Source: Leptodontidium sp. MPI-SDFR-AT-0119 (taxonomy: Eukaryota; Ascomycota; Leotiomycetes; Helotiales; Leptodontidiaceae). From it: a DNA stretch of 64,000 nt. The notes under the pieces were generated by a model. The model saw only the letters and a list, made by a program, of their open reading frames with translations, was not told the origin of the DNA and did not search any database. Made by a program: the position numbers and the translations under genes. Below, piece by piece: positions 25,490 through 63,840 of this stretch (positions are counted from its first letter, which is position 1; every line of letters begins with the position of its first letter). The DNA is taken from positions 3,432,652 to 3,496,651 of the forward strand of contig JAHLEZ010000004.1 of the NCBI GenBank assembly GCA_020726505.1, written 5' to 3'.

Positions 25490-26560
25490 AATTAAGTTAT
25501 TATTTTTATTATAAATTAATTTTTGTATTCTTAATATTCGTATTTATTATAGTTTCATATCTTATAAGAATTTTTTCTTAGTCTTAAGTTATATTAATTT
25601 ATTATATATAGTTTAAATTATTTTATAATTAACTATATTTATCTTTTTAAAGATAACGTAAATAACGTAAGTTATTTTAAGAGACTTATATTACTTAATT
25701 TGACGTTTACTTTTTAAAACTTTAATTAGAAATTTATTATATTAATATACGTATAAAATTAAAGTTATAAATAAGTCGAAAAATTAATAATTAATTATTA
25801 TTAAAAAGATTAAAATTAAAGTAATGTTTCTTATATTTTTACACTTTATAATTAAGTAAAGAAAAAACCGCGAACTAAAGAGGTATAAATAATCGATTAT
25901 TATTTTTTTATTCTTGTAAATTTATATACCTTAAATATGTTCGTTTTTTATAATTACGTAAATCGTCCTTATTATTATTATTTTCTTATACTTAATATTA
26001 TAATAAAGTTAACTTGTTATTTCCTTTCTATTAATTTAAATATTATATAAATTATTTTAAGTATTAATAATAATAAGAAAGATATTTATAATATAGATAG
26101 GCTTATTTAGTCTAATACGAGATAAATATAAATATTTCGCAGATTTAATTAATTTAATTTTCGAGGTATTTATATAATTAAATAATAAGAGATAAGATTA
26201 AAGGCTAACTAAGAAGTAGTCTTAAAGAACACTCTAAAAAGAATAATAGTAAAAAAGGTGAGGAAGATATTATTATAAAGATTAAAGAAGGCGATATAAC
26301 GCGAGTTTTAATAATTAAGAATATATCTTTTCTCGTAAAGTAAGGCATTCTTTTAGATATATTAATTATAAAAGAGAAAGAATAAAAGTATTTAAAGATA
26401 AAATAAGGAGTTAGTAAATAAAATTGCGTTTACTAGTTAAATAAGTAGTAGTATTTAGGCCCTACGTACGCTAGAGTTTTATTAATCTATAGTAGTTCTT
26501 TAGGCATTCCTTGTGTTTTCCCCGCGCCGCGGTTATAGGGACAACGCGCCAGTCGTATTA
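25490..26560. other. AT-rich left end of unit A
   Basis: Very AT-rich, with no gene I can support. A short plus-strand stretch near 26255-26380 reads as KIKEGDITRVLIIKNISFLV without stops in both copies, and could be a relic of a small protein. GC rises sharply near 26520-26545 just before the first palindrome. Confidence 0.5.
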
Positions 26561-26584
26561 TTTTGGCATAATAATATACCAAAA
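26561..26584. promoter_or_regulatory. Boundary palindrome 1, copy A
   Basis: 10-bp arms TTTTGGCATA / TATACCAAAA around ATAA. Copy B keeps the perfect form (TATGCCAAAA), so the mismatch is a G-to-A change. Confidence 0.85.
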
Positions 26585-26630
26585 TAATCGCGCACAGACC
26601 CCCACGTCGCCCCCCTAGCGCCCACTTACC

Positions 26631-26654
26631 TTTTAGTATACTAGTATACTAAAA
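26631..26654. promoter_or_regulatory. Boundary palindrome 2, copy A
   Basis: Perfect: TTTTAGTATA, CTAG, TATACTAAAA. Separated from palindrome 1 by a GC-rich spacer with CGCGCACAGACCCCC. Confidence 0.9.
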
Positions 26655-26851
26655 TAATTTCCCTTAAACTTATATTAATATCACTAAAATCCTCGACCCG
26701 CATTCTATTAACTAAAACTAAACCGCGTCAATATACTGATTTTACTCTTCACTAAGAATAATAAAAACCCAAATATACTTGTAAGCTAAGCTTCGATCTA
26801 ACTAATAGTAAGAAAGACTAACTTATTAGCCTTAATCTAAACCCTATTAAT

Positions 26852-27978
26852 ATACCTCGTCGTCGCAAAACAGCCAAGCAGGCGTCTAATTAGCCCTTAT
26901 ACGTTTTAGCCACTACCTTATTATAAACTATTTGCTAATTCTTTTAGACTTTCTTTCCCCGTGTCTCGACTTATCTTTTCTCTCTTTTACAAGGCCTTAT
27001 CTTAAGGCGAGATTCTCAGTAACGAAATTATCCTTTATTATATTAATCTTATATACTCGAATAATATATTAGATTAGACCTTTGTGTTTTTTCCGCTTCT
27101 CCTCGCTGAGCTTTAAATCCAAATATAGAAGGAGGCTAACTAAAATACTATTAATACTATCCGAATTTAATGTGCCGATTTCTTCTTCGAAACTAGTAAG
27201 GTCGTGTTTAAATATATTATACTTAAGAAGTCTACACTATTAACCCTTTGTAAGCGCAGTCGAGTCGTATACGTAGAGGTATATAAAAATACTAATTATA
27301 TTTACTATAGTACTTATTTACAGATAAATAAGAATACCTTAGGATTAATAGTAAGATCTTGTAGAGAATTCTTATCTCTTATAAATAATATAAATACAAA
27401 CTTAGCGAAGGGACTAATTAAGTTAGAGTTATTATTTTAGGTATACTTCTCTTGTAAAGTAGGCAAGATTAAAGTAAAGTAGAAGTTTAAGCGGAATCGC
27501 GATAAGTTCTTATAAAAGTTATTATAATTTAAGGGCTTAAAGTAATTATTATTTGTTATTAATAAAACAGAGTAGTTTATCTAAAGACAGAATAAGACCG
27601 AGGCAGTGGACTAATTGCAGCTAGTATAGAAGAAGGCCTTTAAGAAGTCTGTGAGCCCTCCTAAAGTCAAAGGGATACTTGTGAAGTCGGAGGTAATTAA
27701 ACAGTACTCGGGTATCTCGGGATTACAGACATATTATAATAGACTATTCTAAGTAAGGAAGAGGGCAATTAAGAAAGTGTATTAAATTTTTATTAGAAAG
27801 AAGTATATAATAATATTATATAAGTTTTTAAGTTTTCTTAATAATATAATTTTCCGTGATAACTAATTATTAGTCATCGCCTTAATAATAAGATTCTAAT
27901 TACTAGTATAAAACTTTCCTTTATCCGCAGTCTTTATATATAACAAGTTTTTAGCTACATACTATATAAATAAAGTCT
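26852..27978 (+). pseudogene. g1, unrecognised protein, copy A
   Basis: This is the more decayed copy of the gene described at 50724-51850. The position of the likely ATG reads ATA here (26852), a G-to-A change. The codon after TAKQAS-type basic residues is still CAG where copy B has TAG, showing directly that the stops derive from Gln codons. A central stretch (27204-27440) remains open. Confidence 0.55.
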
Positions 27979-27982
27979 ATTA

Positions 27983-28006
27983 TTTTAATATACTAGTATA
28001 CTAAAA
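27983..28006. promoter_or_regulatory. Boundary palindrome 3, copy A
   Basis: TTTTAATATA, CTAG, TATACTAAAA. One arm base differs from copy B (51855-51878), which is perfect. Confidence 0.85.
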
Positions 28007-28041
28007 TATTTCTCTCTTACCTCGATATTAAGAGTTTATTA

Positions 28042-28065
28042 TTTTAGTGTACTAGTATATTAAAA
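28042..28065. promoter_or_regulatory. Boundary palindrome 4, copy A
   Basis: TTTTAGTGTA, CTAG, TATATTAAAA, 35 bp after palindrome 3 and between the convergent 3' ends of g1 and g2. Confidence 0.8.
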
Positions 28066-28203
28066 TATTCCCCCCCTTGCCTCGTTATCGTAAGAACGCT
28101 CGTGCCTAAGCTATTAAAATCTCGTTATATATAAACAACGCGCTTTTTAATATATTATTATTTTATTTACCCTTTATTAACTAGCGTTTACACTTACTTA
28201 CAA

Positions 28204-30109
28204 TGGGATTTAAACTATCAGTCGAATCACTCCGAGCAGCAGTAAAAGCCCCCTCCTCTCCCGACTTGCGTTATTTATACTAATACTCTCTAGTTCGTGA
28301 ATGTAGTGGAGGACCTCTTTATAAGACAAAGTACAGTTAATATATATAATATTATATATTAAGGTTAATAATCTTCCTCGAGCTTTGACGTCGCCTAACA
28401 AGAACAATACAATACCCCCTTGTCTCCTAGAATTCAGAGTCGACTTTTGCTAGTTATGCCTCTTCTTCCTCTCCCTTTTTAACATCGGTTTTCTTACCTT
28501 CACTTCCTAAAGTCCTAGCTTCCTTAACCCCAGCGAACTTAAGTCCTCTTCTTATTGAGACCTTAGCTGTAACCTTTATATTGAAACCGGCTTTTTACCT
28601 TTTAAAAACCCTTGCCTTTTTATTAATACTAAAATCTTCTCTTTCCCTTATTAAACCTCTGGCTTCCTTAACGATATTATAGTCTTCTTCTTCTCTTATT
28701 AAGCCTCCCGCGTCGAGTTCCTAGCAATTATTGATATAGACTCCGGCTAACCCCTTAATTACTACATTTATAGTAAATATTATAGTAAAGAATATATTAT
28801 TAGCGAAGATTGCGAAGATTAGGCCACTCTTGTACTTAAGTAGTTTATAGTAAAGAACGTTAATACGCTAGTTAGATAAGAAGGTAATCACATTCAAGGC
28901 AATTTTAGTGTATATATAAGTCTATAACATTTGTATTTGTGATTCTTAAACCAAACCTACAGATATAATTATTTATATATAAACTGCTTACCTCTTACTT
29001 TCTCATAAGCCTCTTACCCTCTAGGAGTATGCCCTATTACCGGTTTAATTTCTTATAGTATATGTATAAGCCGAGAAGCCATTTAAGCTAAACTAATTAA
29101 CCCCTTATTAAACCGAAGTAGCTTGTTGATCGTCATTCGCCTTTTCCACTAATATATTATGCTTAAAAATAAACTAGTAAGCATATAACTTAGCCCTAGT
29201 CAACTCGCTTAATACTTTGTTCATTTTACTTAGCACTTCATCGACTACCTGGGAAAATTAATAAGGAGTCGCGATATAGTATATAAAGCTTATTTAAAGC
29301 TTTTCGTAGAACTCGTCGTAGTATGTAGTGTTAACCTTAACCTTAATCTCCCTACTCTTGTCTACGAGTTTGAGATTAAACACCTTTTAGTTTATAGTCT
29401 CGAAATACTTAATCTTTAACTTATAAACTACATAAACTTTAATAATCTACTTAAGAGTATAAAGCGACAGTAATTTAATAGGAGATATATTCACGCGGAA
29501 GGGAGGGTTCAAAGAAGAGGATTCGCTTTAGAAAGGATTAAGATTAAGGCCCTTTAGCTTCGTAAGTCAGATCGTAGTAAGTGTAATAAGTTGACCAATC
29601 TTCTCGACTTCACTTAAGCCCTCGAGGACGTCGAAATCAAAAACTATTAAGATTCTACTAAAGTTAGTAAATAATCTTAAATTAAGTACGAGTAATTATA
29701 GACCTTAAGTTATTAATAAAGTTAGCCTAGTATTCCTTTAATTATATTATAGAACTTTTCTTTAACTTCTCGTCTTAAATAACTCTCTCAGATTGTACCC
29801 TTAACGACGGATTAGTATATACTCAACTTTTATATAAGGTAACTTATTAGCTAGTACTATACACCTTACTAAGTTATTAATATCACTTAAGATAATAATA
29901 TATCTTGTTATTATAATAATTAATACGTCTAAAACTAGTTCGACTTTCAAGCACTAACAAATTAAGGATTAGCCTTTGGAGATCGCTGACGTGTTATGTA
30001 AGGCATCGCTAAAGATATCACTAAGTTAAATTAATAAAAGCGCATTCCTTTTCTAAGTAACTTACTTTAATACTTCCCGAGTAATCTAATCGCGCACTAC
30101 GTTTGCTAT
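28204..30109 (-). pseudogene. g2, RPA70-like protein, copy A
   Basis: More decayed copy of the gene at 52076-53981. The start codon equivalent at 30107-30109 reads ATA in place of ATG. The last 65 codons (28210-28407) stay open and are nearly the same as in copy B, with LLGDVKARGRLLTLI and HELESISINNASRERRG. Confidence 0.65.
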
Positions 30110-30252
30110 TTTGTGTAAGTGTAAATAATATCTTTATTAATAAAAGAAGGACGACCTTACTTTATTTGTTTTGGCTATTTAGTTAGTGGCGTAAGGGTGG
30201 CGCATCTCAGGGTGGGCTAGCCCGTGCGCGCGCGTTAGCCGGCAATTATTTA

Positions 30253-30276
30253 TTTTAGTATACTAATATACTAAAA
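30253..30276. promoter_or_regulatory. Boundary palindrome 5, copy A
   Basis: TTTTAGTATA, CTAA, TATACTAAAA. It lies between the divergent starts of g2 (minus) and g3 (plus), preceded by a GC-rich block with GTGCGCGCGCGTTAGCC. Confidence 0.85.
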
Positions 30277-30331
30277 CATTTAACTTATAATATAACTAAA
30301 CCCTATTACTTACTTAACAAATACTATAATT

Positions 30332-32274
30332 ATAGTATCTTATAATCTCAAGACGTAAAGTAATAGCTCGAAATAGCTAATCTTACTCTATAAGATTACT
30401 ACAAAACACAAACGCGCGACTGAGACTAAAACCTTAAGCGATAAGAGTAAGAAAGCTCTAAAGAAGGGGCGAAAGAAGAGTAAAGTAAATATTATAATAA
30501 AAGATACGGAGTAAAGAGAAAGGAATAAGCTTTTCTAATAAAGAGTTTAGGCGGCGAAGGCTAAATAATATACTTTTTTATCCCTCTTTTCTTATCTTAT
30601 ACTAACTATCTTAGGGCATTATTGTTAACCGCGCTGTAAAGTATCCTCGAAACTCACTCCGGCGCGTAAAAGGCGGTCTAGTGCGTGATATACGTTATTA
30701 GCGGTGAAAAACTAAGCGACAAGATATCCTTTAATTCTAGTATACCTAAGATAATCCTTATAAAGGCTTATTATAAAGGCCAAGTTCTAACGTTTGACTA
30801 GCTGTAGGATCTTATATATAAAGACTTAGATTAAGAAACCCTTGTTAATATAATCGTTAATTATAGTGAAAATAACTAAACTAAGGACTAAGTTACTTAG
30901 AAGATCGTTACTAAAACATTATTTAGAGAGATTAGTTAACCGCCTAAGACCTTTAGTAACATCTCGGGTATCATTGATTTCCCTTTACCCCCGATAGACT
31001 TCAAACTAAAGCTCCCCTCTAAACTTAGCCGTACTATTATAAACGCTAAAGCCGCTTCTGAATATATAGTTAATATTGTCTTTACTAATTAATTAATTAA
31101 GTACTATATTAACATAAGTTACGCTAGGCTCGTAACTCTCGCGGGATAATATAAAAAGATTTAGTTCGTCGTATTATATACTAAAGCCAACGTCTCCCTT
31201 CTTCTCGAACCGGACTATAACTTCTAATCCCTTATTACTAAGTTATATAATCTTATAGTAATTCGCTAAATTTCAAGCTACGTCCTTTTTCTCCCTTTAA
31301 GGTTAATTCACGTAACTTTTACGATTATAACTAGAATTTTATATAACAATTCTTTCCGTATACACTAGAATATCTAAGGGGCAACGATAGGAATAGTTTA
31401 CGCCTTAGATAATAATAAAGAAGGAGATAACGAAGATAAACTGAATTATGTCGTTAAGTTATAGCTAAATACTTTAAAAGAAGGTATAAAGTAGAAGCCT
31501 TTATGTCAAGAGATTAAGGCGGCGATTAAATCAGCTTGCCTTTAGAACCTTCGTAGAGACAAGGGGCTCTTGAAATATATTAACTAAGTAAAGGCTTTTA
31601 TTATAAAGTATTTCCTAGAAGTTACACTTAAGGCTTTAGATATAGTAAAAGATAAAGTAATAAACTAACCGTCAGTACTTAAGTTACAGGACTAAGGCGC
31701 GGAGTAAGACGAGGATAAAGGTAATAAGTTAGAGAAAAAGGATAATATACTAGAATAATAAGGTGTGGAGGACTAAATAAAAGGCAAGGGTAAAGAATTA
31801 AAGGATACGAGCGTAAATAGTGAGGAGGAGTTAGAGGAAGATATTAATAAGTAAGGAGATTATGTTTTAAAGTAAGAAGATAACAAGGGAAGTGAGTATG
31901 TGACTAATAAGGCGAGTGAGGAAGAGGGTAATAAAGACGAGAATAATAAGGCGAGTAAAAAAGAAAGTAATAAGGAGGTATATAATTAAGCAAGCGAGGA
32001 AGAGGAAAGTAAAGAAGTATATAATTAAGTAAATAAGGAAAAGGAAAGTAAAGAAGTATATAATTAGGCGAGTAAAGTAAAAGGAAGTAATAATAGGGAG
32101 GATAAAGAGAGCGAGAAGGGTAAAAGTGAGGATAAGGAGGATAAAGAGAGCGAGAAGGGTAGAAGTGAGGATAAGGACAATAAAGTAAGCTAAGACCAGG
32201 ATAATGCCGTAATTTAAGACAGCGACGAGTAAATAAAGGTTTAGGAGACTGAGTAGTACTAAATAAGTAGTTAA
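30332..32274 (+). pseudogene. g3, basic-to-acidic unrecognised protein, copy A
   Basis: Copy A of the gene described at 54204-56146. The same frame is readable with a few more Gln-to-stop changes. The acidic repeats near the C-terminus (around 31950-32080) remain visible as GAGGAAGAGGAAAGT-like units. Confidence 0.6.
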
Positions 32275-32561
32275 GTAGTGTAGTATTATATATAAAACTA
32301 ATAATTAGATTACCTTATGTTAAATTATTAGTTATTAACTAAGTTAGGAAGTGATAATAGATTAGTAGTTATAACTTAGATTAGGAAGGTATAACAAATT
32401 ATTAATTATTAGCTAAGTCTGGGGGTAATAACACAAGAGTAGTTACTAACTAAGTTAAGACGTGATAATAAATTAATAGTCACTAATTATTTTTGGGATA
32501 GATAGTTATAAGTAATATTTCTATATAAACAAAATCCCTAATAAAAAATAATTACTAATTC

Positions 32562-32585
32562 TTTTAGTATACTAATATACTGAAA
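32562..32585. promoter_or_regulatory. Boundary palindrome 6, copy A
   Basis: TTTTAGTATA, CTAA, TATACTGAAA. It sits between the convergent 3' ends of g3 and g4. Confidence 0.85.
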
Positions 32586-32593
32586 CCCCTTAT

Positions 32594-35500
32594 ATTTATA
32601 TACTCCTAAGCATTTACTCTTTTAATATAAAGAACTTAGCAAGGTACTATAGGATACTCCCCGGCCTATATATACCCTTCCCCTACTAAGATGAGCCGTC
32701 TTATACTACCGACCACTAAATCCGCCTACTAGTATTCTTTACCGTCGAGATTAAAGTCCTATTTCTATCTAGTAACGGAATTATTTAATAAATAAAAAGA
32801 AGTTAACAAAGAAGTTATGTTATTATTCCTTCTAAATCTCTGGGTATAAGTTTAAAGCGATATTTACCTTTTAATACATTACTTAGTACTACTTATTATT
32901 AAAATATTTACAATTATAACCCGGACTAAATAACTATAAACAATCGAACATTATTCGTGAATCCTTAATCTTTATCTTATTAGAAATACATAAATATAAA
33001 GGAGCCTAAAAGTATTATACTAAGTCGTTATAATAAAAGGTAATATTATTATCTTCGATCTTACTTCATATCTTTAGTTATTCTAAATTCCTTTCCTTTA
33101 TTAGTACTTAAAGGATAACTTGTCGATACTTTCAGAAATATAAATAATTTAATAAATTTAAGACTTTCTTTAGGTATAAGTACTTCACGGCCTTTAGGAG
33201 CAGCTTTAAGATATTATCAAGCTCTTAGGCAGCTCGCCTTACTTCGCGTGTCTTCTAATCGAGCCCTAAGACATCTTTAGATATTATTAAAAAATTAAGT
33301 TAAATATTCTCCCGTATCTTAAGGCGCGCCTAATTAACGATCAGTAAGAACTAAGTGTAGCCCGTTTAAATTAAGGTTAACTCGAATCCTAACTTACGGC
33401 GTAAAGTCCCATCTTACCCTTAATACTAGTTATATTAAAGGGTTCTCACCTTATATAACGCCCCTTAAGTAAAGAAGTGTTACAAGCATTTTAAGAGGGC
33501 GTAAAGCAAGTAACTTTAACCTTTACTAATCTTGTTACTTAAGGCGGTTACAGTAACTGCCTTAAATAACTTACAAAACTTCTTAATATTACCTATTATA
33601 AAGTCGTAATACTACAAAAACGTAATTACTTATACGAAAGGCGGGGTTTGTAATCATTAGCAGAACGTAATATTTTCCCAGTCCTTAATCGCCTTTGTCC
33701 AGATCTTATTAAAACAAACTAAAAGAATAGTACTAAGTAGTCGAGCTTTTAGCTAGAGCGACTTTACCCAGTCACGAGCCGTCTTATAACTAATTATAAA
33801 TCGTGTTTTACTATTCGTGTAATTATTCTCGATCGTCGCTCACTTCTTTTTTCTTATAAGTTTCTTATTTAAGACAATAAAGAGCTAAGTGACCTAATTA
33901 AGACAAAGCTTTAAGAGGCTGGGGTTATTAAAGAAATAGATTATTCCTACGTCGTAGATTTCCTTCTTAATTATATAACATTACAAGTACTTTAATTTAG
34001 CTTTATAAATCTAAGAACCTTTGGCTAGTTTGTGCGTTATATTATACGCCTCAGCTAAGAACTTGACGTTATAGTACTTTATTACGCTTAAGGGCTTTTC
34101 AAGGTATAAGTTCTTTAGAAGTTTCTCTAAGTAATATCGCTTTTATAAGTAAACTTAAGCTTCCTTATGATTATTCCCACTTATAGTAGGAGCGCTAAGG
34201 TAGATTTCGATTGCGACATTAATAAAAAGATCCTCGTGTAATAAGAACTCTTAATTAAATATAGTATTTAGCTTATTATAATAGTTTGTAATAACTATTA
34301 AGAAAGATTCTTGACCTTAGAACTATAACTTATGTCCTTTGCCCGTAATATATAAAAAAGGGTTAATAAAGTCCTCAAAACCGTCCTTAAATATAATATT
34401 TAAGATTATTATCTAAATTACTTCGAGATATTTTACTTAGATTAAGTAAGTTTAGTACTGTTTCGTTTTCGAATCCTCTTTTCTAGTCTATGTCTCGCTT
34501 ACTTTTACTCTAGCATTTAACTAAGTAATAAGCTAAGTAGGTGGCATATACTAAGTAACTATATTATAAGCTTAAGCGAAAATACTCTTTATTATAATAT
34601 AATTAGAGAAGTGAGCCAATTGTTTATTTATTAATCCCTTAGTTTAAGTATTATCTAGATTATAGAGGTTAGGGAAGAACATATAAACGACAAAATTATA
34701 AATACTTATAATACTACTGATATATAAGTGTGGAATATGTCGAAATTACACTATTACCTCCCTTAATTTACAGGTGAATTTATTATATAAATATATAAAC
34801 GTTCGCTCAATCTTAATATTACTTGTAATCCCCTGTACGTATTAGTATAATAGATAATAAAAGAACTCGCATTAAATAACTACGAGAGATATTAATAAAG
34901 CCCTTATATTATTAATATCACTATTTATTAAAATGAATATTTATACGACTTCTTTTAATTTAAGACAAATATTCTTCGCTAGTGACGACGCGTCTATTAT
35001 TCCTATTATAAGCTCTTTGACATGTGAAGCTAGTAAGACAAAGAGCTTCTTATTTGCCCCTTAATTACTACGAAAAAGCGTATTCTTAAGCCCAGTAGTT
35101 ATTTTTAGAAACTAATAAACTGCCTTATACATAGCGTCTAAAGTGTAGTAATTACTATTAACTTTACGCTTATAGCGCATGGCATTTAGCTTATATTGCC
35201 TTTTACTATACCTTAGAATCCCTTCCTAAATTATTTTCAAGAAGGTCGATATTAAATAATAAACATTATTAAGTTAGTCTAATAACTTGTATTAATTAAT
35301 AAAGTCCGAGAGTTCTAAGTCTTGATCTTCTCGTGGTAGTAAGCCTCCTTACTCGTCGAAGAGATCTATAAGCTTGCCTATAAAATCAAGGGCTTCGTTA
35401 TTATTAGGAATATTTAGAATATTATCGTCAGAATCCGCGGGCGGTACTATAAGTAATAACATCTTTATATCTTCATCTTAAGTAGTACCTTGACCTAATC

Positions 35501-36830: not shown

Positions 36831-36847
36831 AGGTAGTTTAGTTAATA

Positions 36848-36871
36848 TTTAAGTATACTAATATACTAAAA
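36848..36871. promoter_or_regulatory. Boundary palindrome 7, copy A
   Basis: TTTAAGTATA, CTAA, TATACTAAAA; one mismatch between the arms. It lies just upstream of g4. Confidence 0.8.
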
Positions 36872-36880
36872 CCCTAAGGA

Positions 36881-37388
36881 TTAGTTTTGTTTACTAAGCG
36901 ACCGCGGAAAACGGCCCTCACTATAAAAACCCCTACACTTATAAGAAATTAGTTTTATATATTTGTAATCATAATATATAATTAAGCGTAAATTCATATA
37001 ATAACTTATATATAACCTTAAGTAATAATTGTCCTCCCTTAAAGTAATAATTAATAATAAGTAATAATAAACAATATAAGTTAAGTACAAATGTTATTAA
37101 AGAGAAGAGGCCTCGCTCGTAACTTTCTCTGTCTCTTATAAGAGGTCGAGGGTTTAAAGTAAAAAGAGGTTTAGTTTATAAGCCTCTCGTGGTATTTGAA
37201 GAGAAGAGAAGGTAGTACTTACGTCTCTTATAACGTAAGGAATTAGATATTCTATAGCCGAGTAAATACTAATTACTTTAAGGAAGGTGTCAAAGAGTAC
37301 CTTAGTGATTTTCTCTGTTTTCTAAGTCCCGAGCTTATGAATTCTAAAAGCCGTTAGAACTATAACTAGTAGGGGCCAAGGAAGCTAC
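36881..37388. other. Spacer between palindrome 7 and g5, copy A
   Basis: A minus frame at 36881-37090 (69 codons, YKYIKLISYKCRGFYS) is open in both copies (60832-61020 in copy B, 62 codons), so it may be a small conserved gene or a 3' exon. I recognise nothing in it. Confidence 0.35.
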
Positions 37389-40440: not shown

Positions 40441-40449
40441 CATTCGCGC

Positions 40450-51850: not shown

Positions 51851-51854
51851 ATTG

Positions 51855-51878: not shown

Positions 51879-51913
51879 TATTCTTCCCTTACCTCGATGT
51901 CAAGAGTTTATTG

Positions 51914-51937: not shown

Positions 51938-52075
51938 CATTCCTCCCCTTGCCTCGTTGTCGTAGGAACGCCCGTGCCTAAGCTATTAGAATCCCGTTAT
52001 ATATAAATAACGCGCTTCTTAGTACATCGCTATTTTGTCCACCCTCTATTAGCTAGCGTCTACACTTACTTACGA

Positions 52076-53981: not shown

Positions 53982-54124
53982 TTTATGTAAGTGTAAATAG
54001 TGTCTTTGTTAACAAAAGAAGGACGACCCTACTTTGTTTGTTTTAGTTGTTTAGTTAGTGGCGTAAGGGTAGCGCATCTCGGGGTAGGCTGGCCCGTGCG
54101 CGCGCGTTAGCCGGCAACTATTTG

Positions 54125-54148
54125 TTTTAGTATATTAGTATACTAAAA
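54125..54148. promoter_or_regulatory. Boundary palindrome 5, copy B
   Basis: TTTTAGTATA, TTAG, TATACTAAAA, between divergent g2 and g3. Confidence 0.85.
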
Positions 54149-54203
54149 CATTTAACCTATAACACAACTAAACCCCATCGCCCACTTAACAAATACTACA
54201 ACT

Positions 54204-56146
54204 ATAACATCTTATAATTTCAAGACGCAGAGCAACAGCTCGAAACAGCCAATCCCACCCCGCAAGATCGCTACGAAACGCAAACGCGCGACCGAGACTG
54301 AAACCTCAGGCGATGAGAGCAAGAAAGCTCTGAAGAAGGGGCGGAAGAAGAGTAAAGCGAATATCATAATAAAGGATACGGAGTAGAGAGAAAGGAACAA
54401 GCTTTCCTAATAGAGAGTTCGGGCGGCGAAGGCTAGATAGTATACTTTTTCAACCCTCCTTCCTCATCCTATACTGACCGTCCTAGGGTATCATTGCTAA
54501 CCGCGCTATAGAGTATCCTCGAAACTCACTCCGGCGCGTAGAGGGCGGTCCAGCGCGCGATATACGTTATTAGCAGTGAAAAACTAAGCGACAAGGTATC
54601 CTTTAATTCTGGCACACCCAAGATAATCCCTATAGAGGCTTGTTATAAAGGCTAAGTTCTGACGTCTAATTAGCTGTGGGATCTTGTGTGTAAGGACTTA
54701 GATTAAGAAACCCTTGTTAGTGTAATCGTCAATTATAGCGAAAATGACTAAACTAAGGACTAAGTCACCTAGAAGATCGTTGCCGAAACATTATTTAGAG
54801 GGATTAGTCAACCGCCCAAGACCTTCAGTGACATCTCGAGTGTCATCGATTTCCCTCTACCCCCGACAGACTTCGAACTAAGGCTCCCCTCTAAACTTAG
54901 CCGTATTATCATAAACGCTAAAGCCGCTTCCGAATATACAGCCAACATTGTCTTTGCCAATCAATTAATTAGGTACTACATCGACATAAGTCACGCTGGG
55001 CTCGCAGCTCTCGCGGGACAATATAAAAAGATTTAGTTCGTCACACTATGTACCGAAGTTAACGTCTCCCTCCTCCTCGAACCGGACCACAGCTTCTAAT
55101 CCCTTACTACTAAGTTACACAATCTTGTAGTGATCCGCTAAACTTTAAGCCACGTCCTTTTCTTCCTTCTAGGGTTAATTCACGTAACCTTTACGATTAT
55201 AGCCGGAATTTTATATAGCAATTCTTTCTACACATACTAGAATATTTGGGGGGCGACAATAGGAATAGTCTACGCCTTAGATAAGAATAAGGAAGGAGAT
55301 AACGAAAATGAACTGAACTATGTCGTCAAGTTATAGCTAGACACCCTGAAGGAAGGTATAAAGTAAAAGCCTTTATGTCGAGAGATTAGGGCGGCGATTA
55401 AATCGACTTGCCTTTAGAACCTTCGCAGAGACAAGGGGCTCTTGAAATATACTGACCAGGTAGAGGCTTTTATTACAAAGTATTTCCTAGAAGCCACACT
55501 TGAGGCTTTAAATATAGTAGAAGATAGAGCGATAAACCGACTATCGGTACCCAAGTTACGGGACTAAGGCGCGAAGTAAGACGAGGATGAAGGTAATAAG
55601 TTAAAGGAAGAGGATAATATGCTAGAACAATAAAGTATAGAGGACTAAATAGAAGGCGAGGGTAAAGAATTGGAGGATACGAACGTAGATAGTGAGGAGG
55701 AGTTAGAGGAAGATATTAATAAGTAAGGAGATTATATTTTAGAGTAAGAGGATGACGAGGGAAGTGAGTATGCGACTGATAAGGCGAGTAAAGAAGAAGG
55801 TAGCGAGGACGAGAATGGTAAGGCGAGTAAGGAAGAGAGTAATAAGGAGGTATATAGCTAAGCGAGCGAGGAAGAGGAAAGTGAGGAGGTATATAGCTAG
55901 GCGAGCGAGGAAGAGGAAAGTGAGGAAGTGCATGGCTAGGCGAGTAAGGCAAAGGGAAGTGATAATGGGGAGGATAAAGAGAGCGAGAAGGGTAGAAGTG
56001 AGGATAGGGAGGATAAAGAGAGCGAGGAGGGTAAAAGTGAAGATGAGGACGATAAGGTAAGCCAGGACTAGGATAATACTGTAGTTCAAGACAGCGACGA
56101 GTAGATAGAGGTTCAGGAGACTAAGTAGTGCTAGATGAGTGGTTAA
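54204..56146 (+). pseudogene. g3, unrecognised protein with basic N-terminus and acidic repeat tail, copy B
   Basis: The readable frame starts near 54204 (ATA where an ATG is expected) with a basic segment, KIATKRKRATETETSGDESK, then KALKKGRKKSKAN, probably a nuclear localisation signal. After a frame change near 54560-54660, one frame runs to TAA at 56144-56146. It passes through FPLPPTDFELRLPSKLSRII and RYYIDISHAGLAALAGQYKK. It ends in a 180-residue acidic tail with repeats of ASEEEESEEVYSQ type. All interruptions are TAG/TAA, consistent with former Gln codons. No domain recognised. Its divergent arrangement with g2 suggests co-regulation. Confidence 0.6.
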
Positions 56147-56226
56147 GTAGTGTAGTATTATATATAGAACTAGTAATCAGATTGCCTCATGTCAAATTAT
56201 TGGTCATTAACTAAGTCAGGAAGTGA

Positions 56227-56354
56227 TGACAGATTAGTGGTCATAACCTAAATTAGGAAGGCATGACAAATTATTAGTCATTAGCTGAGTCTGGGGGTAA
56301 TAACACAAGAGTAGTCACTAACTAAGTCAGGACGTGATGACAGATTAATAGTCA
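56227..56354. repeat. Three 17-bp TGAC-N9-GTCA dyads beyond g3
   Basis: TGACAGATTAGTGGTCA (56227-56243), TGACAAATTATTAGTCA (56264-56280) and TGACAGATTAATAGTCA (56338-56354) have the size and outer half-sites of the dyads in the 47-49 kb arrays. Copy A has the decayed equivalents around 32355-32482. Confidence 0.7.
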
Positions 56355-56433
56355 CTAATTACTTTCGGGATGGATAGTTACAAGTAGTATTTCTATATAA
56401 ACAAGATCCCTAATAAAAAATAATTACTAATTC

Positions 56434-56457
56434 TTTTAGTATACTAGTATACTGAAA
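56434..56457. promoter_or_regulatory. Boundary palindrome 6, copy B
   Basis: TTTTAGTATA, CTAG, TATACTGAAA, at the convergent g3/g4 boundary. Confidence 0.9.
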
Positions 56458-56464
56458 CCCCTTA

Positions 56465-59400
56465 TGTCTATACACTCTTAAGCATTTACTCTTTTGACAT
56501 AAAGAGCTCGGCAGGGTACCGTGGGATGCTCCCCGGCCTGTATACACCCTTCCCCTACTGGGATGAGCCGTCCTATACTACTGACTACCAAATCCGCCTG
56601 CTAGTGTCCTTTGCCGTCGAGATTAAGGTCCCATTTCCATCTGGCAGCGGAATTATCTAATAGAACAAGAAGAAGTCAACGAAGAAGTTGTGCTGCTATT
56701 CCTTCCGAATCTCTAGGTGTGAGTTCAGAGCGGTATTTACTTTTTGATATATCACTCAGTATTACTTGTCATTGAAATGTTTACGATTATAACCCGGACT
56801 AGATAACTATAAATAATCGAACATTATCCGCGGATCCTTGATCTTTGTTTTGTTAGAAATACACAGATGTAAAGGAGCCTGAAAGTATTATACTAGGTCG
56901 TTGTGATAGAAGGTGATATCGTTATCTTCAATCTTGCTCCGTATCTCTGGTTATTCTAAATTCCCTTCCTTTATTAGTGCCTGGAGGACAACTTATTAAT
57001 ACTTCCGGAAACACAAATAATTTAATAAATTCAAGACCTTCTCTAGGTGTAAGTGCCCCACGGCCTCTGGGAGCAGCTTTAGGACATTATTAAGCTCCCA
57101 GGCAGCTCGCCTTACTTCGTGTGTCTTTTAATCGAGCCCCAAGACATCTCCGGATACTATCAAAAAATTGGGCTGGATATCCTCCTGTATCTCAAGGCGC
57201 GCCTAATCAATGACCGGCAGGAACTAGGCGTAGCCTGTCTAAGTTAAGGTCGACTCGAATCCTAACCCACGGCGTAAAGTCCCATCTTGCCCTTGGTGCT
57301 GGTCATACTAAAGGGTTCTTACCCTATGTAACGCCCCTTAGGTAAAGAAGTGTTATAGGTATTTTAGGAGGGCGTAAAGTAAGTAACTCTGACCTTTGCT
57401 AATCCCGTCACTTAGGGCGGTTACAGTAACTGCCTTAAACAACTTACAAAACTTCTTAATATTACTTACTATAAAGTCGTAATACTGCGGAGACGTAATC
57501 GCCTATGTGAAAGGCGGGGTTTGTGACTATTGGCGGAACGTAATATCTTCCCGGTCCTTGATCGCCTTTGTCCGGATCTTATTGAAATAGACTAAGAGAA
57601 CGGTATTAAGTAGTCGAGCCTTTAGCCGGAGCGACTTTGCCCGGCCACGAGCCGCCTTATAACTAGTTATGAATCGTGTCTTATTATTCGTGTAATTATT
57701 CTCGATCGTCGCTCGCTCCTTTTTTCCTGTAAGTTTCTTATTTGAGGCAATAGAGAGCCAAGTGACCTGATCAAGACAAAGCTCTAAAAGGCTAGGGTTA
57801 CTAAAGGGATAGACTGTTCTTGCGTCGCAGATTTCCTTCTTAACTATATAACACTGTAAGTACTTCAATTTAGCTTTATAAATCTAAGAACCTTTGGCTG
57901 GTTTGTGCGTTATATTACACGCCTCGGCCAAGAACTTAACGTTATAGTACTCTATTACGCCTGAGGGCCCTTTAGGGTATAAGTTCTTTAGAAGTTTCTT
58001 TAAGTAACATCGCTTCTACAAGTAGACTTGAGCTTCCCTATGATCGTTCCTACTTGTAGTAGGAGCGTTAGGGCAGATTTCGATTGCGACATTAATAAAG
58101 AAATCCTCGTGTGGTAAGAACTCCTAATTAAATATAGTATTTAGCTTATTATAATAGTTTGCAATAACCGCTAGGAAAGATTCCTGACCTTAGAACTACA
58201 ACTTGTGTCCTTTGCCTGTGATATATAGAAAAGGGTTAGCGAAGTCCTTAAAACCGTCCCCAGATGTAATGTTTAGGATTATTGTCTAAATTACTTCGAG
58301 ATATTTCGCTTAGATTAGGTAAGTTCGGTGCTACTTCGTTTTCGAATCCTCTTTTCTAGACTATGTCTCGCTTGCCTTTGCTCTAGCGTTCAACTAAGTA
58401 ATAAGCTAAGTAAGTGGTATATACTGAGTGACTACATTATAAGCCTAGGCGAAAATACTCTTTATCATAATATAATCAGAGAAGTGAGCCAATTGTTTAT
58501 TCGTTAACCCCTTAGTCTAAGTACTATCTAGATTATAGAGGTTAGGGAAGAACACATAAACAGTAAAATTATAGATACCTATGATACTACCGATGTATAA
58601 GTGTGGAATATATCGAAGTTACACCGTTGCCTCCCTTAATTCACGGGTGAATTTGTCGTATAAATATATAAACGTTCGCTCGATCTTGACATTACTTGTA
58701 ATCCCCCGCACGTACTAGTATGATAGACAGTAAAAGAACTCGTATCGAATAACTGCGAGAGATGTTAGTAAAGCCCCTGTGCTGTCGATATCGCTATTTA
58801 TTGAAATGAATGTTTACGCGACTTCTTCTAACTCAAGACAAATATTCTTCGCTAGTGACGACGCGTCTGTTATTCCTATTATGAGCTCTTCGATATGCGA
58901 AGCCGGTGAGACAAAGAGCTTCCTACTTGCCCCTTGATTACTACGAAAAAGCGTATTCTTAAGCCCGGTAGTCATTTTTGGAAACTGGTAGACTGCCTTA
59001 TACGTGGCGTCTAGAGTGTAGTGATTGCCATTAGCTCTACGCTCATGGCGCATGGCATTCAGCTCATATTGCCTTTCACTACACCCTAGAATCCCTCCCT
59101 GAATTATTCTTAAGAGGGTCGATATTAAATAATGAACATCGTTAAGTTGGTCCAGTAACTCGTATCGATTAATAAGGTCCGGGAGTTCTAGGTCTTGATC
59201 TTCTCGTGGTAGTAGGCCTCCTTGCTCGTCGAAGAGATCTATAGGCTCGCCTATAAAATCGAGGGCTTCGTCATCGTTAAGAATATCTGGAATATTATCG
59301 TTAGAATCCGCGGGCGGTATTGTAGGCGATGACATCTTTATATCCTTATCTTGAGCGGTGCCTTGACTTGATCTTGCCTCGGTCTCTGGCAACTGCGAGA

Positions 59401-60775
59401 GCCTTTTCTTAAACCCTCCCATCTTTTAGTTTAGCTCCCTACAATAGACTGATCGACCTTTTCTTTCCAAAGGGCTTACGGAACTGCCCTCTTTTATACT
59501 AAATAATTTCAACGACGAGGGTTTTGTTCCTTAAGAAGTAAAGTATTGGGTATTTGGGGATAAATCGACTGGGTCGCTAGAAGAGTGATGTCCTGACTCT
59601 AATAAAAGAGGTCGTATAGTTGCAAAGCGTGAGTTTGGGTTAGACAAGATTCCTGGACTACTCCTCTTGTCTAAGAAAAGGGTTTGTATTAGAGCGGGGC
59701 TAAAGGTTGTCACCGGTGATACTCGAGGATTGTTATTTACGTTCGGAGGGGATAAAGATAAGTGAGGAGATTTAGAACGTGTAATTGATGTGATCGTAGG
59801 ATTGTTGTTTAGGTTTGGAGGTGATGGAGATAAGAGAGTAGGCTTAGATTGTGTAATTGACGCTATTCTAAGACTACTTTTTGTATCCGGTAGGAGAGAA
59901 TAGATGGTTACAAAGCTAGAATCCCTATTGGATAAGATCCTTATACTGCGACTTGCATCTGGTAAGAGAGAATGGATAGAAGCAAAGCCAGAATCTGGAT
60001 TGGATAAGATCCCTAGACTGTAGCTTGTATCTGGTAGGAGAAAATAGATGGTAACAAAGCCAGAATCCGCATTGGATGAGATCTCTGGACTGCGGCTTGT
60101 ATTTAGTAGGAGAGAATGGATGGTAGCAAAACTAGAATCCGCATTAGATGAGATCCCTGGACTGCGGCTTGTATCTGGTAGGAGAGAATGGATAGTAGTA
60201 AAACTAGAATCCGCATTGGATAAGATCTCTGGATTATTTCCTGTGGTCAATAAAAGTGACTGTACTGGAGTAAACCTAAAGCTTGATAACTTCGAAGTAT
60301 CTGAATCCTCCTTATGCTTGCGACTCTGCCTTGGCGTCGAGAAATTTGCAGTAGGGAGTCTAGGAGTCGGTCGAGGAGTACTAGATATATCGGGTTCTAG
60401 TAGAGGAGAAGTAGCGTAAGAAGCGGCCGATAGAGTTGTGGAGGAGCTATATAGAGAGTTCTATTACGAATTAGTAGAAGCGGCTTTGGTTTAAATAATT
60501 TATACAGTAACAAAACGATCTATTAGCCCTGCGACATTACTTCTCGATTGGCTCCTAGCTATAGACTGGCCCGGTGAAGCACGCGGCCTTCCACGCCCTC
60601 TAGTTAATCGACTTCGAGAGGTAGTCGGCGATGCTCGTGGCCTTCCACGTACCCTCCCTGGTTTCGGCGAAGCTTTTGCTATCGAATAAGTAACTGGTGC
60701 TGTACGGTGAAAGTTCAGATGGGCAGAGCATGTATCGAGGCATAAAGAAATGAAGAGCTGAGAGAGAAATAACAA
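56465..60775 (-). pseudogene. g4, giant AT-hook and 23-residue-repeat protein, copy B
   Basis: Four open stretches (beginning 60775, 60250, 59422 and 57868) lie in the same frame and are separated only by TAA/TAG, so they form one gene of about 1430 codons. The N-terminus has two AT-hooks (RGRPRASP near 60640 and 60590), which bind the minor groove of AT-rich DNA. Next comes a block of about nine 23-residue repeats (LSNADSSFTTIHSLLPDTSR-like, 59870-60250). Then there is an acidic segment (NIPDILNDDEALDFIGEP) and a long region with AIEICPNAPTTSRNDHREAQ, KYLQCYIVKKEICDARTVYP and KARLLNTVLLVYFNKIRTKA. The last part resembles, from memory, a widespread family of large fungal proteins annotated only as hypothetical. 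A transposase or capsid-like role cannot be shown. The true start codon is uncertain. Confidence 0.7.
59870..60250 (-). repeat. Coding repeats of about 69 bp in g4
   Basis: Units begin with TCTGGTAGGAGAGAATGGAT-type sequence on the plus strand and encode the 23-residue repeat of g4. Copy B appears to have one unit more than copy A. Confidence 0.8.
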
Positions 60776-60792
60776 AGGTGGTTTAGTTAATA

Positions 60793-60816
60793 TTTAAGCA
60801 TACTAATATACTAAAA
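60793..60816. promoter_or_regulatory. Boundary palindrome 7, copy B
   Basis: TTTAAGCATA, CTAA, TATACTAAAA, about 20 bp upstream of the g4 reading frame. Confidence 0.85.
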
Positions 60817-60831
60817 CCCCAAGGATCAGTT

Positions 60832-61324
60832 TTATTTACTAGGCGACCGCTGAAAACGGTCCTTACTATAAAAACCCCTGCACTTATAGGAAATTAGTTT
60901 TATATATTTATAATCATAATACATAGCTAAGCGTAATTCATTTATATACAGCCCTAGGCAATAATTATCCTCCCTCAAAGCAATGATTAATAGCAAGTAA
61001 TAGCAAACGATATAAGTCAAGTACGAATGTCATTAAGGAGAAGAGGCTTCGCTCGTAACTTTCTCCGTCTCTCGCAGGAGGTCGAGGGTTTGAAGTAAAG
61101 AGAGGTTTGGTTTATAAGCCCCTCGTGGTGCTTGAAGAGAAGAGAGGGTAGTACCTGTGTCTCTCATGACGTAGGGAATTAAGTATTCTGCGGCCGAGTA
61201 AACACTAACTGTTTCAGGGAAGGCGTCGAAGAGTACCTTAGTGATTTTCTCCGTTTTCTGAGTCTCGAGCTTGTGAATTCTAAAAGCCGTTAGAACTACA
61301 ACTAGTGGGGGCCAAGGAAGCTAC
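60832..61324. other. Spacer between palindrome 7 and g5, copy B
   Basis: The minus frame 60832-61020 (62 codons) is open as in copy A. The rest has no supported gene. Confidence 0.35.
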
Positions 61325-62836
61325 TTACTGGCTGGCAGTACCCTTCAGAAGAAGTACTATAATACCCTTCCTAAACTGCTGTACTAGTGTGTAGATCCCA
61401 TAGTACATCTGCAACTGACTACTTAGTTGTTCCTTCGTCAACTTCAACTAAGTAGCCAAGTATTCCAGGACATAACTGCGAATATCGACTCCTTATTTGG
61501 TTTCGTAACTTACTGCCCGGAAGAAGTCTCGTAACTCTACCCCGTCCAGTCTTATTACTTTCGTTCGTAGATGTATGTAGCTTTCGTATAACTCAAATCC
61601 ACGCATTATATTAGCAATTTCAACTGTTATCTCCTCTTTTGTGACCTTAGTCTCGACCTTGGCGTATAACGAGAAGAAGGTTTGTATCTCAGGCATCGAG
61701 CTCTGCTTAGACGCCTTCTCTACTGCAAGAACTGCCACTGACGCCTTGGCCTTGTCAAATTCGATGATCTTATCTAGAAGCTTAACGATTCGCGTTTGAC
61801 AGGTTACTCTGAAGGTGTTTTTAAAGAAGAACTCTTTAAGGAACGTAATTTGTGCTAAGGTGACGTTGTATAATGTAGCGGAGTTGTTTCTTTTTCCTTT
61901 AATTGTCAATTACTATAGCTCGTGCTAGAAAACGTTTACTACTTCTAAGTCTAAGCTTTGGCTTCGTTGTTATGTAGTGGCCGGTTAAGGACTTGACGTC
62001 GATCTTGTACTGGCTCCTAGCTTGTTGGATACCTTTCTCCGTTTCGAAGGGCGCTGTTTCGCGGAGTCTGATGTAAAAGGTGGTTCTGGAGAAGGACTTG
62101 CTCGAGGTTCGTTTAAAGATGGTATATTCGAAGAAGTAAGGTTCGACAAGGGGGGATTCGAGGACGGCAGATTCGACGAGGGGGGATTCGACGACGGCAG
62201 ATTTAAGGACGGCAGATTCAACGAGGGGGGATTCGACGACGGCAGATTCAAGGACGGCAGATTCGAGGAGGGGGGATTTGTAAAAGGGATGTCTAAGGAG
62301 GGGAGGTTTAGAGGGGCGAGCGTTGGAGAAAGGTGGTTCGAAGAGGTGAGGGGTGAGGTGGCGAGGGTCGTAAAGGACATATTAGGAGAAGGTACAGTCG
62401 TAGAAGGCAAGGGGATTCGGTCCTGGTAAGGTAGAGGGAATGCTGTAAATGTACTAGGGAGAGCCCGGACTGGAGTTGGTTAGTAGTACATTAGCGGTTA
62501 GAGCGTGGGGAGAGGCTCTCAAGCAGACGGTTCTAATTGTGGAGGCAAGGACGGCGTCGAGGATATCTGTAGGGTTTCTGTGAGCGATCGAAAGGCATCT
62601 TGGATACGAGAGATCTTCTCTGGCCGGGTGTTTGATAGTTCGAGGATCAAGTGGTGTATGATTTGCTGGAGGAGCTGCGTCTGTTAGTACCGCGTCTAAG
62701 GAAAGGGGGGAGGGGCGTACGGATTGGTATTCCCCTGTGAGGGCGCTGCCTTGCAAGATGATATCGGCGGGACGTATTTTATAGTGAGTTACTAGAAACA
62801 TTCTTAGGAATAAGAGGGAGAGGGCGAGTAAGACAT
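61325..62836 (-). pseudogene. g5, Ser/Pro/Asn-repeat protein, copy B
   Basis: The ATG at 62836 (MSYSPSPSYS) and the open stretches starting at 62410 and 61909 share one frame of 504 codons, broken only by Gln-to-stop changes. The N-terminus is Gln/Pro-rich. Residues about 165-230 are short NLPSSNPPSLN-type repeats. A basic QRPSKRRKVSNK segment looks like a nuclear localisation signal. The C-terminal half is a compact conserved-looking domain: ATLYNVTLAQITFLKEFFFK, FDKAKASVAVLAVEKASKQS, PEIQTFFSLYAKVETKVTKE and LRTKVIRLDGVELRDFFRAV. I recall similar fungal hypothetical proteins but no named domain. Confidence 0.65.
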
Positions 62837-63029
62837 GTTTTATTATAGATATTGCGGGGCATGTTTTGTTGTGAGTGTTGTGGGGCGCTAAAAATATGCT
62901 GGCGTGTTACAGGGAAGAGCGTGTTGTTACGCAAAAAGCGTGTTATTGGGAAGGAGCTTGTTACTAAACTGGCGTTATCTTACTTGTGCGACTAATTTCG
63001 GCAATATTATAGCAGACATGGATTTATTA

Positions 63030-63840
63030 CTACCCCTCCTTGCGAGTCTTATAATCCGCATTAGATAGGTCGATATATAATGCCGCCATAACAAGATTAT
63101 TATTACCGCGAGTATTTTGAGAGAAGAGTTGTCGTCGTACTCGCGATAACACAATCACGGTTATGTTTAATGTGTAATACACAATATATTACTACGAGCC
63201 TTGCTTCAAAATCATATTATTGCTTCATCGAATTATAATGTTTTACTGTACATGTGGCTGGGCCCCTCTCTACGAGGTCTTCTTCTTTACTTACTTCGTA
63301 TCTATCGTCTTCACTGAACCTATGGGAATTGGAGCTCTAAGCGCCTTACTATCTAACTTCTACTTCTACTTCTTAAATGCCGACTCCTTCTTGTCTCCTG
63401 ACAAGGAGTACTTCTTAGAAGGAGAGGTATAAGTTTGTGGCTTAGTCGGGGTATATATACTAGAAGGCTTGAACGAACCAATAGGCATCAGTTGGTCTAG
63501 TAGGGATTTTACTGTCAGATCGTTAGTATACGAGCCCTATTAATAGAGGTGCGACTTACTATCAGAGGCCGGGGGAGGGCTCGAGTCTAGAGTGGCGCCC
63601 TTAAACGGAAAGTTTAGCTTTTAGGTAGGGGTCGATAGGTAGACAGGGACAACTGAGGTCCTCTTTAGTGTACTTTCTTTAGGGGCGGGGAGGGACTGGG
63701 ACGAGGGTTGAAAGGAGGGTTAAGGGATCGGCTTAGGCTTAGTCTTGGGAGCTTGTGTTTCAGGCGTTGACAGCTTAAGGCCTACCGACGGTGTGGTCTT
63801 AGGTTTGGCTTTTGGACGAGCGGTTAGGGCCGTAATGGAC
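63030..63840 (-). pseudogene. g6, copy B, truncated by the telomere
   Basis: The 3' two thirds of g6, ending at TAG (63030-63032). It contains SPSKKYSLSGDKKESAFKKQ and APIPIGSVKTIDTKQVKKKT. The frame enters from the telomere side, so the 5' end (promoter, start and about 135 codons present in copy A) was lost when the chromosome end formed here. Confidence 0.65.

Follow-up and report, generated by a model that had tools for sequence, protein, structure and literature searches.

A probable giant mobile element, recently active and present as two damaged copies, at a telomere of Leptodontidium sp. MPI-SDFR-AT-0119

The repeated block next to the telomere in the window (the whole stretch of 64,000 nucleotides that was analysed) represents a giant mobile element of roughly 24-27 kb that was recently active and is present here in two damaged copies; it most likely belongs to an unrecognised family of DNA transposons. 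In the tandem, one copy adjoins the array of an older one, which is itself bordered on the left by a Starship-type element. The coordinates are collected in Table 1.

Table 1. Location of the element copies, their parts and their neighbours in the window.
Feature	Position	Strand	Basis or remark
Part of Starship-type giant element, outside the repeat unit	1..25488	-	Runs leftward; 5' terminus about 25488
RIP-damaged DUF3435 (Starship captain type) gene	22800..24078	-	Pfam PF11917
Element copy 1	25489..48119	+	Older; GC about 31%; heavily RIPed
RPA70-like gene, copy 1	29075..29512	-	Genome search with RPA70-like gene
Copy 1 counterpart of the 54689-55687 gene	30820..31815	+	Genome search
P0001, copy 1	33663..36515	-	Genome search
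Right subterminal array of copy 1, 35-bp units	47443..48119	+	Same TGACA-N7-TGTCA palindrome type
Element copy 2	48120..63840	+	Young burst copy; GC about 42%; exact left terminus to telomere
Left terminus	48120..48335	+	Begins TCTATACACGTAAACAGGGTTAGG...; genome matches and fetched junctions
Left subterminal array, 97-bp units	48297..49124	+	17-bp palindromes, TGACA-N7-TGTCA
Possible 2EXR-domain gene, copy 2	50953..51210 (approximate, carried over from C15)	+	PF20150
RPA70 DNA-binding-domain-like gene, copy 2	52947..53387	-	PDB 1jmc, E 1.2e-10 (C15 copy)
Gene of no recognised family, copy 2	54689..55687	+	Acidic repetitive stretch follows in frame
P0001, long frame of AT-hook protein, 977 codons, copy 2	57530..60460	-	Candidate mobility protein
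AT-hook-like stretch	60506..60682 (approximate)	-	Same frame as P0001
Gene-like frame, no recognised family	61451..61909	-	No stop present in every aligned copy over 153 codons
Gene-like frame, no recognised family	62457..62906	-	No stop present in every aligned copy over 150 codons
Telomere (TTAGGG)n cutting copy 2	63841..64000	+	Repeat scan

Alignment of 25489-39904 with 49361-63840 gave 86.3% identity over 14.49 kb, far above chance, and the repetition of the regions at 25490 and 49362 reported in the first-pass annotation is therefore real. The loss of the second copy into the telomere was likewise confirmed, with (TTAGGG)n present from 63841 and copy 2 cut after 15.7 kb. The proposed 23.9-kb unit agreed with the offset of corresponding points (23.87 kb), but the element itself is longer, and its copies do not start at 25490 and 49362, since the common left terminus lies at 48120, 1242 bp upstream of the second of these positions. 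Nor do the copies abut exactly as had been described: copy 1 stops at 48119 inside its own 35-bp array, and copy 2 starts inside that terminal array. Copy 1 lacks the left 1.24 kb, its right limit falls within its 35-bp array, and its start at 25489 is the border with the DUF3435 Starship-type element, not an end of the element. Judged by sequence match (98% over 214 bp in the genome search with the left terminus), its absent left end is probably located at C34:3203532-3203745. The junction of copies 1 and 2 was taken from the assembly alone. The RIP pattern of copy 2 differed by 5.9-13.3% from those of all seven other aligned copies, so that copy 2 is not a duplicated contig end.

The left end at 48120 reads TCTATACACG... 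and gave 19 matches in the genome, 17 of which started at query base 1-3 and one at base 25; the remaining match was a weak inner one. The left-end base was identical in all ten junctions that were fetched, and the flanks were all different, with a GC-rich flank at C27. TAN preceded the left end in eight of the ten, a preference without control in flanks that are AT-rich, and the base immediately ahead of the 5'-TC was A in five, T in four and G in one. Permissive pairwise alignments mostly ended at the left terminus; the exceptions, C15a-C35 and C2-C33, ran about 230 bp and 45 bp further left, with flanks that differed by eye. Telomere repeats were absent from all ten left flanks.

Two element genes each matched ten copy places in the 77-Mb genome, giving ten copies with element body. 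The annotated unit is thus found outside the window, though not with the borders it had been given. Among the burst copies C33, copy 2 of the window, C15a, C27, C2 and C35, each pair differed by 509-2304 transitions and 0-4 transversions (gaps excluded), compared with 7-38 transversions in pairs involving copy 1 or C18. C15b showed no transversions against the other six burst copies in a 4.5-kb comparison, and C32 showed one over 3.65 kb. Differences that are almost exclusively transitions indicate that the burst copies were identical before RIP, and therefore that the burst was recent; RIP acted on each copy separately. Such a record is an unusually clean dating tool. The older partial copies at C28, C59 and C30 carried transversions and small indels, nearly all of lengths that are not multiples of three, and by this measure there was no sign of coding constraint in these three copies.

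The arrays at both ends of the element were built on one 17-bp palindrome, TGACA-N7-TGTCA. With a spacing of 5-9 and one mismatch tolerated, 16 sites were counted in 48120-49361 and 10 in 47440-48119; 30 shuffles gave means of 0.10 and 0.00, respectively. Subterminal transposase-binding arrays and a CACTA TIR are features of CACTA/En-Spm-type transposons; the element resembles these in having short transposase-binding-like motifs arrayed near both ends, but no CACTA TIR and no known transposase were found. The fixed left end in many flanks, the recent burst and the terminal arrays together upheld the large mobile element suggested in the first-pass annotation.

Where about ten long proteins had been annotated, one long frame of 977 codons (P0001) and several shorter gene-like frames were found. 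The clearest genes are those of the AT-hook protein and of the RPA70-like product. The latter had been recognised beforehand and was confirmed as an RPA70-type single-stranded DNA-binding protein by the match of the C15 copy to PDB 1jmc (E 1.2e-10); identity of its domain to the presumed RPA70 of the host was 39%. The 2EXR candidate (E 0.018) reached 16.5 bits where the cut-off is 24.8, and the supposed peptidase had no match. The AT-hook giant corresponds to a protein of about 1,000 codons, whose AT-hook-like motifs precede the long frame in the same reading frame; the short stop-rich piece that separates them is possibly an intron.

Five stops in the P0001 frame were common to all aligned copies, so that the source element itself may have been damaged. 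P0001 had five distant relatives (20-26% identity) at other loci of the genome; in three of these there were 11-18 stops, as in RIPed repeats, while the related gene at C15:241308-242612 is nearly open. A genome search with a second element gene found no relatives at these loci; its weak matches (C12:2876468, C12:2882552 and C69:2515770) lay at other places. There was no convincing match to P0001 in Pfam or PDB, including a PDB profile search, and no relative among viral contigs; its AlphaFold model was unusable (pLDDT 33.9). Weak matches to 40S S13 (E 0.38), designed beta proteins (E 0.055-0.19), PilJ (E 0.23), WD40 (E 0.19) and BP74_N (E 0.18) were attributed to chance.

In line with the first-pass annotation, no transposase, integrase, reverse transcriptase or helicase was detected in the Pfam scans made, which were of limited sensitivity, particularly on whole frames. 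Scans of whole 3333-aa frames missed the RPA domain that was visible in a 147-aa piece, and these negative results are consequently weak. Six-frame scans of C15 1-20,000 and C33 430,101-435,000 found no reverse transcriptase family, and no helicase family, RecQ/DEAD type included, turned up in the Pfam scans; both negatives share this weakness. The scanned sequence stopped short of the final 3.3 kb in C33 and of the rightmost 2 kb in the C2 element. In the portions of the literature that were available, no published element of such composition was found.

Taken together, the unit is probably a giant DNA-level mobile element with a protein of the AT-hook P0001 family as its candidate mover. An element-encoded DNA-binding protein, for which the P0001 family is the best candidate, would bind the palindrome arrays and would move or copy the element into AT-rich DNA, and the RPA70-like protein may protect single-stranded intermediates. 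In the window, copy 2 would have arrived within the array at the right of copy 1, after which a new telomere would have replaced the distal part of copy 2. The enzyme in this explanation is a guess, because no recognised transposase or recombinase was found, and the common direction of the copies is unexpected of an ordinary transposon.

This direction was marked: 17 of 18 left ends faced the nearer contig end (p = 7.2e-5; C8:1832252, a 72% minus-strand match inside another match, was left out of the 19), and the one exception was on the 16-kb contig C59. The controls, counted on contigs of known length only, were not flat either (350-bp repeat, 12/15; Helitron Rep, 8/11; 3-kb repeat, 5/9). 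As a tentative and rather doubtful extension of the favoured reading, the element may represent a new superfamily of giant DNA transposons in eukaryotes, which would encode a single-stranded DNA-binding protein and an AT-hook transposase of unrecognised fold and would insert only facing the chromosome end, for example via entry into single-stranded DNA at outward-moving replication forks. Uniform polarity, arm exchange and head-to-tail pairs are also characteristic of subtelomeric yeast Y' and telomere-linked helicase blocks. The element shares all of these, including the subtelomeric position, but no helicase was found and its exact left end occurs in different flanks.

Spread as a subtelomeric block by ectopic recombination and break-induced replication only, as for yeast Y' and with no transposition, would fit the polarity, the telomere-cut copies, the head-to-tail pair and the distal 6.2 kb that C2 and C18 have in common at 99% despite different left flanks. 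Homology exchange would, however, give varying borders, whereas the proximal base was the same in ten junctions with different flanks, including the GC-rich one at C27, and seven left ends lay 89-359 kb from the nearer contig end. Recombination as the sole means of spread is therefore unlikely, and the cassette spread by recombination that had been offered as an alternative holds in part, for the arm beyond the element, as in C2 and C18.

The right end was less sharply defined. The telomere cut three copies at three different points, and the distal extents were 7.97 kb in C35, 15.7 kb in copy 2 of the window, 23.7 kb in C18, 24.5 kb in C33 (to its telomere) and about 26.6 kb or more in C2 and C15b. 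The element is thus about 24 kb at least and probably 26.6 kb, the length in C2 being the best candidate for the full one. The sequence shared by C2 and C15b ended at a single base, L036:3411, beyond which the two diverged. The right end is uncertain because this point coincides with a Starship-type border; neither a settled right end nor a mere Starship site, it is taken as the best candidate for the right end of the element. TAT was present on both sides in C2 and C15b and is not separable from the terminus itself, and a target-site duplication was demonstrable for no copy. Comparison of the left 250 bp with two candidate right ends revealed no inverted repeat at the termini; the longest inverted match was an internal 13-bp AT-rich word. 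The left flank of C2 is a repeat, the continuation of which was read from C28, and the right side of C2 gave no match to this continuation above the AT-rich background, so that no clean two-sided insertion was demonstrated.

A constant direction and variable distal truncation are known from the HeT-A/MoTeR group. One-sided addition of the element to broken chromosome ends by its fixed left end, with a variable distal cap, in the manner of HeT-A/MoTeR but at the DNA level, would account for the fixed proximal end, the varying distal ends, the common direction and the flanks of C2, which do not form the two sides of a single known site. Mismatched flanks of this kind are explained equally well by arm exchange at a later time and by insertions of Starship type, and one-sided addition is also opposed by the seven left ends at 89-359 kb from contig ends, where some copies have further DNA past them. 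As the Starship-type borders and the arm common to C2 and C18 account for the mismatched flanks, this model is disfavoured and very unlikely. MoTeR and FoTeR are presented as telomere-associated retrotransposons in the text available from PMC7367193 and PMC12857005. The element is similar to these and to HeT-A in its chromosome-end location, constant direction and variable distal truncation, but no reverse transcriptase was found, its genes lie on both strands and its left flanks are not telomere repeats.

Helitrons start with 5'-TC, end in 3'-CTRR with a hairpin and use an AT target, and autonomous ones carry a Rep/helicase gene. Movement as a giant non-autonomous Helitron by the Helitrons of the genome is in keeping with the start at 5'-TC, the lack of a visible TIR, the RPA70-like gene (reported for many plant Helitrons in the part of PMC4683698 that was available) and the 51 genome matches to Helitron Rep (PF14214), a few of them in open frames. 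None of these 51 lay in element copies, the base before the TC varied, and the candidate right end, itself uncertain, carried neither CTRR nor the ATTTT end of FoHeli, a non-canonical Helitron according to the accessible text of PMC5148889. The length of about 25 kb, the direction bias and the palindrome arrays also set the element apart from Helitrons, some of which share an RPA-like gene. Palindrome arrays of large size are not known from Helitrons. With no Rep in the copies and no 3' signal at the candidate right end, the Helitron hypothesis was not supported and is quite unlikely.

Fungal giant mobile elements now seem to be recognised largely through Starship captains. An element of about 25 kb that was active recently and in which neither a captain nor a Rep, reverse transcriptase or integrase was found would suggest another route for large gene blocks, and the shared orientation of its copies towards contig ends is relevant to how subtelomeres form. 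In the available portion of PMC12134995, Starships are giant transposons with a DUF3435 captain; like the element, they are large multigene DNA elements, here in a filamentous-ascomycete-type genome with RIP and in AT-rich DNA. The element differs from them in its left end, its subterminal palindrome arrays, its multicopy burst and the lack of a detected captain, and elements of Starship type insert into or beside it here. DUF3435 genes were abundant, with at least 115 matches genome-wide (100 of the 144 candidates were scored), and this abundance and the borders in or beside copies would suit a degraded Starship after loss of its captain. Such an origin is highly improbable: among the matches listed (the same 100 of 144 candidates scored), no DUF3435 captain, which in a Starship is located 5', lay inside an element copy, and such an origin is contradicted for the left end, where TCTATACACG follows mostly TAN, with neither GGTCGCTGTTTTA nor a TTATTAT-type (Starship ATTAT-type) site.

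The DUF3435 gene in the window was recovered on two gene pieces (PF11917, E 2.3e-36 and 1.6e-23, with X at stops), 1.4 kb from the 25488/25489 border. The sequence GGTCGCTGTTTTA occurred at 25441 (minus strand) and in two other Starship-type left ends, and in all three it lay next to TTATTAT-type sites. Starship-type borders were seen in or beside several element copies.

The window is the final 64 kb of contig C34 (3,496,651 bp), one of 69 contigs that make up a 77-Mb genome. The genome's RIP-type mutations, DUF3435 genes and TTAGGG telomeres would suit a filamentous ascomycete. Its two element copies were 86.3% identical over 14.49 kb aligned, which upheld the repeat described in the first-pass annotation. 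The proposal that the element was cut by the telomere also held, since the second copy reached the telomere after 15,721 bp. The start of the unit had been misplaced, as other copies begin further left; their shared left end was at window 48120. This left end (TCTATACACGTAAACAGGG...) was found at 10 loci (eight exact, two with three mismatches) and was preceded by different DNA in each. Position 48120 also lay at the end of a 35-bp array (from 47443) in the right-hand part of copy 1, and the tandem junction was therefore placed at 48119/48120. The left end, CTATACACG, resembled the array unit, CTATAACACG (window 48105-48130), and copy 2 was joined in register with the array of copy 1. Within the left terminus, window 48135-48143 read AGGGTTAGG, which amounts to one and a half telomere repeats oriented as in the telomere. 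The telomere cut two more copies, on C35 after 7.97 kb and on C33 after 24.5 kb, so telomere truncation is recurrent.

When six copies (C33, copy 2 of the window, C15a, C27, C2 and C35) were compared in pairs over 7.8-24.5 kb, gaps excluded, they differed by 509-2304 transitions but by no more than 0-4 transversions. A seventh copy, C15b, had no transversions against each of these six over the body's first 4.5 kb, and C32 differed from C33 by one transversion over 3.65 kb. The near-absence of transversions indicated that these burst copies were one sequence before separate RIP. Pairs involving copy 1 or C18 had 7-38 transversions; these two copies are therefore older. The RIP index, calculated from the least-mutated state per column among the six aligned burst copies, was 0.65-1.01 for unit 2-22 kb, 0.26 for 1-2 kb and 0.47 for 22-23 kb, whereas the window's left flank had values of 0.73-1.23. 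These values indicated that, before the burst, RIP had affected the source slightly or in part, except near its AT-rich ends. The element is a genuine giant element whose activity was recent.

Palindromes of the TGACA-N7-TGTCA type (spacing 5-9, one mismatch permitted; the perfect ones listed all had spacing 7) numbered 16 in the left 1.24 kb and 10 in the right array of copy 1, compared to means of 0.10 and 0.00, respectively, in 30 shuffles; two body controls had 6 (shuffled mean 2.40) and 0 (shuffled mean 3.13). The three bases preceding the left end were TAN in 8 of 10 junctions, a figure that has no control.

On the right, C33, C2, C15b and C18 all continued beyond the array and entered a repeat of 350 bp that is common across the genome; C18 departed from it after 33 bp. 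This RIPed repeat sits in the element's right part (at 1190-1541 of L036, a sequence that covers it) and was scored at at least 37 other genome places, with 40 of 161 candidates scored. C2 and C15b matched each other as far as L036:3411 and diverged beyond it; the C2 element would then be 26,573 bp. At L036:3411 C15b met a Starship-type left end exactly, and C18 carried a Starship-type right end there, beyond which came the flank of C2. Because of these Starship-type borders, L036:3411 is a candidate right end only, and the right end is less certain than the left.

Left of copy 1, a DUF3435 (captain-type) gene was detected at window 22800-24078 (Pfam E 2.3e-36 and 1.6e-23), pointing away from the border at 25489. 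Window 22800-25488 comprised this gene, RIP-damaged, and the 5' terminus of a Starship-type element adjoining copy 1, which the first-pass annotation had missed. The motif GGTCGCTGTTTTA at the copy 1 border was common to two other borders, in the C32 copy and at the end of C15b, both with DUF3435 matches 1.4-2.2 kb inside (C32:253367-254400, C15:129702-130840). About 186 kb separated the two parts of the C32 copy, with ends in inverted orientation and ATTATAT on each side. Since a left end at C34:3203532 was 98% identical to that of the window over 214 bp, it is probable that a Starship of about 253 kb has split copy 1. Other large GC-rich stretches in or beside the element (C32:251119-437003, C15:26838-132268, C18 to 799060) likewise had ends of Starship type at ATTAT sites; only their ends were read, and the pairing of ends into one insert was assumed.

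Gene-like features of the element, in window coordinates
Feature	Position	Strand	Detail
RPA70 DNA-binding domain gene	52947-53387	minus	PDB 1jmc, E 1.2e-10
Gene, then acidic stretch	54689-55687	plus	10 copies and three weak matches elsewhere in genome
Possible 2EXR gene			E 0.018, below cut-off
P0001, long frame of the AT-hook protein	57530-60460	minus	977 codons, 5 stops common to every aligned copy

The PDB match confirmed the RPA70-like gene of the first-pass annotation; weaker Pfam matches, to RADX (0.0015) and DUF223 (0.0045), were below cut-offs. A genome search with this domain returned 10 element copies and one further gene, 39% identical, whose open frame has 506 codons and which is presumably the host RPA70. 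Widening the P0001 span to 1177 codons gave 59 copy-variable stops and 14 common stops. In frame upstream was a stretch with two motifs that we read by eye as AT-hook-like, in keeping with the AT-hook protein originally described, then a short stop-rich piece. The genome contained five distant relatives of P0001, one of them interrupted by a single stop; P0001 had no convincing match in Pfam or PDB and no relative among viral sequences. Further gene-like frames in the element had no matches, and the Pfam scans made, which were not very sensitive, agreed with the earlier observation that no mobility gene is recognisable.

The body faced the nearer contig end in 17 of 18 left ends counted (p = 7.2e-5); the sole exception was on the 16-kb contig C59. 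Omitting C59 gave 17/17 (one-sided p = 7.6e-6 if independent, which does not apply to two ends 12 kb apart on C8 or two on C34, that at 3203532 being probably that of copy 1); the C32 score rests on 203 versus 250 kb. The count was 7/7 for contigs whose right end showed a telomere. Contig starts were taken as chromosome ends by assumption, because no telomere repeats were found there (0 reverse matches, whole genome), perhaps an assembly effect. All 265 genome matches to TTAGGGx4 were on the plus strand and none on the minus strand. Since three other repeats on contigs of known length, used as controls, scored 5/9, 8/11 and 12/15, part of the direction effect might be general.

The left flank of C2 was a repeat, which eight other genome places matched up to the junction. 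When one of these, on C28, was read past the junction, its continuation had no above-background match on the right of C2; the right arm of C2 matched the C18 end at 99% over 6.2 kb. The simplest reading of these sequences is insertion, then arm exchange between element copies; a less likely alternative is one-sided addition of the element to the chromosome. For movement, a DNA transposon whose ends would be bound by the AT-hook protein is favoured. We regard the giant-element reading as a whole as somewhat probable, and its end-binding component as less so.

Elsewhere in the window, an apparently intact non-LTR retrotransposon occupied 9956-15390 on the minus strand, with two long open frames of 1309 and 509 aa; the shorter had no match, and the longer encoded endonuclease, RT and RNase H.
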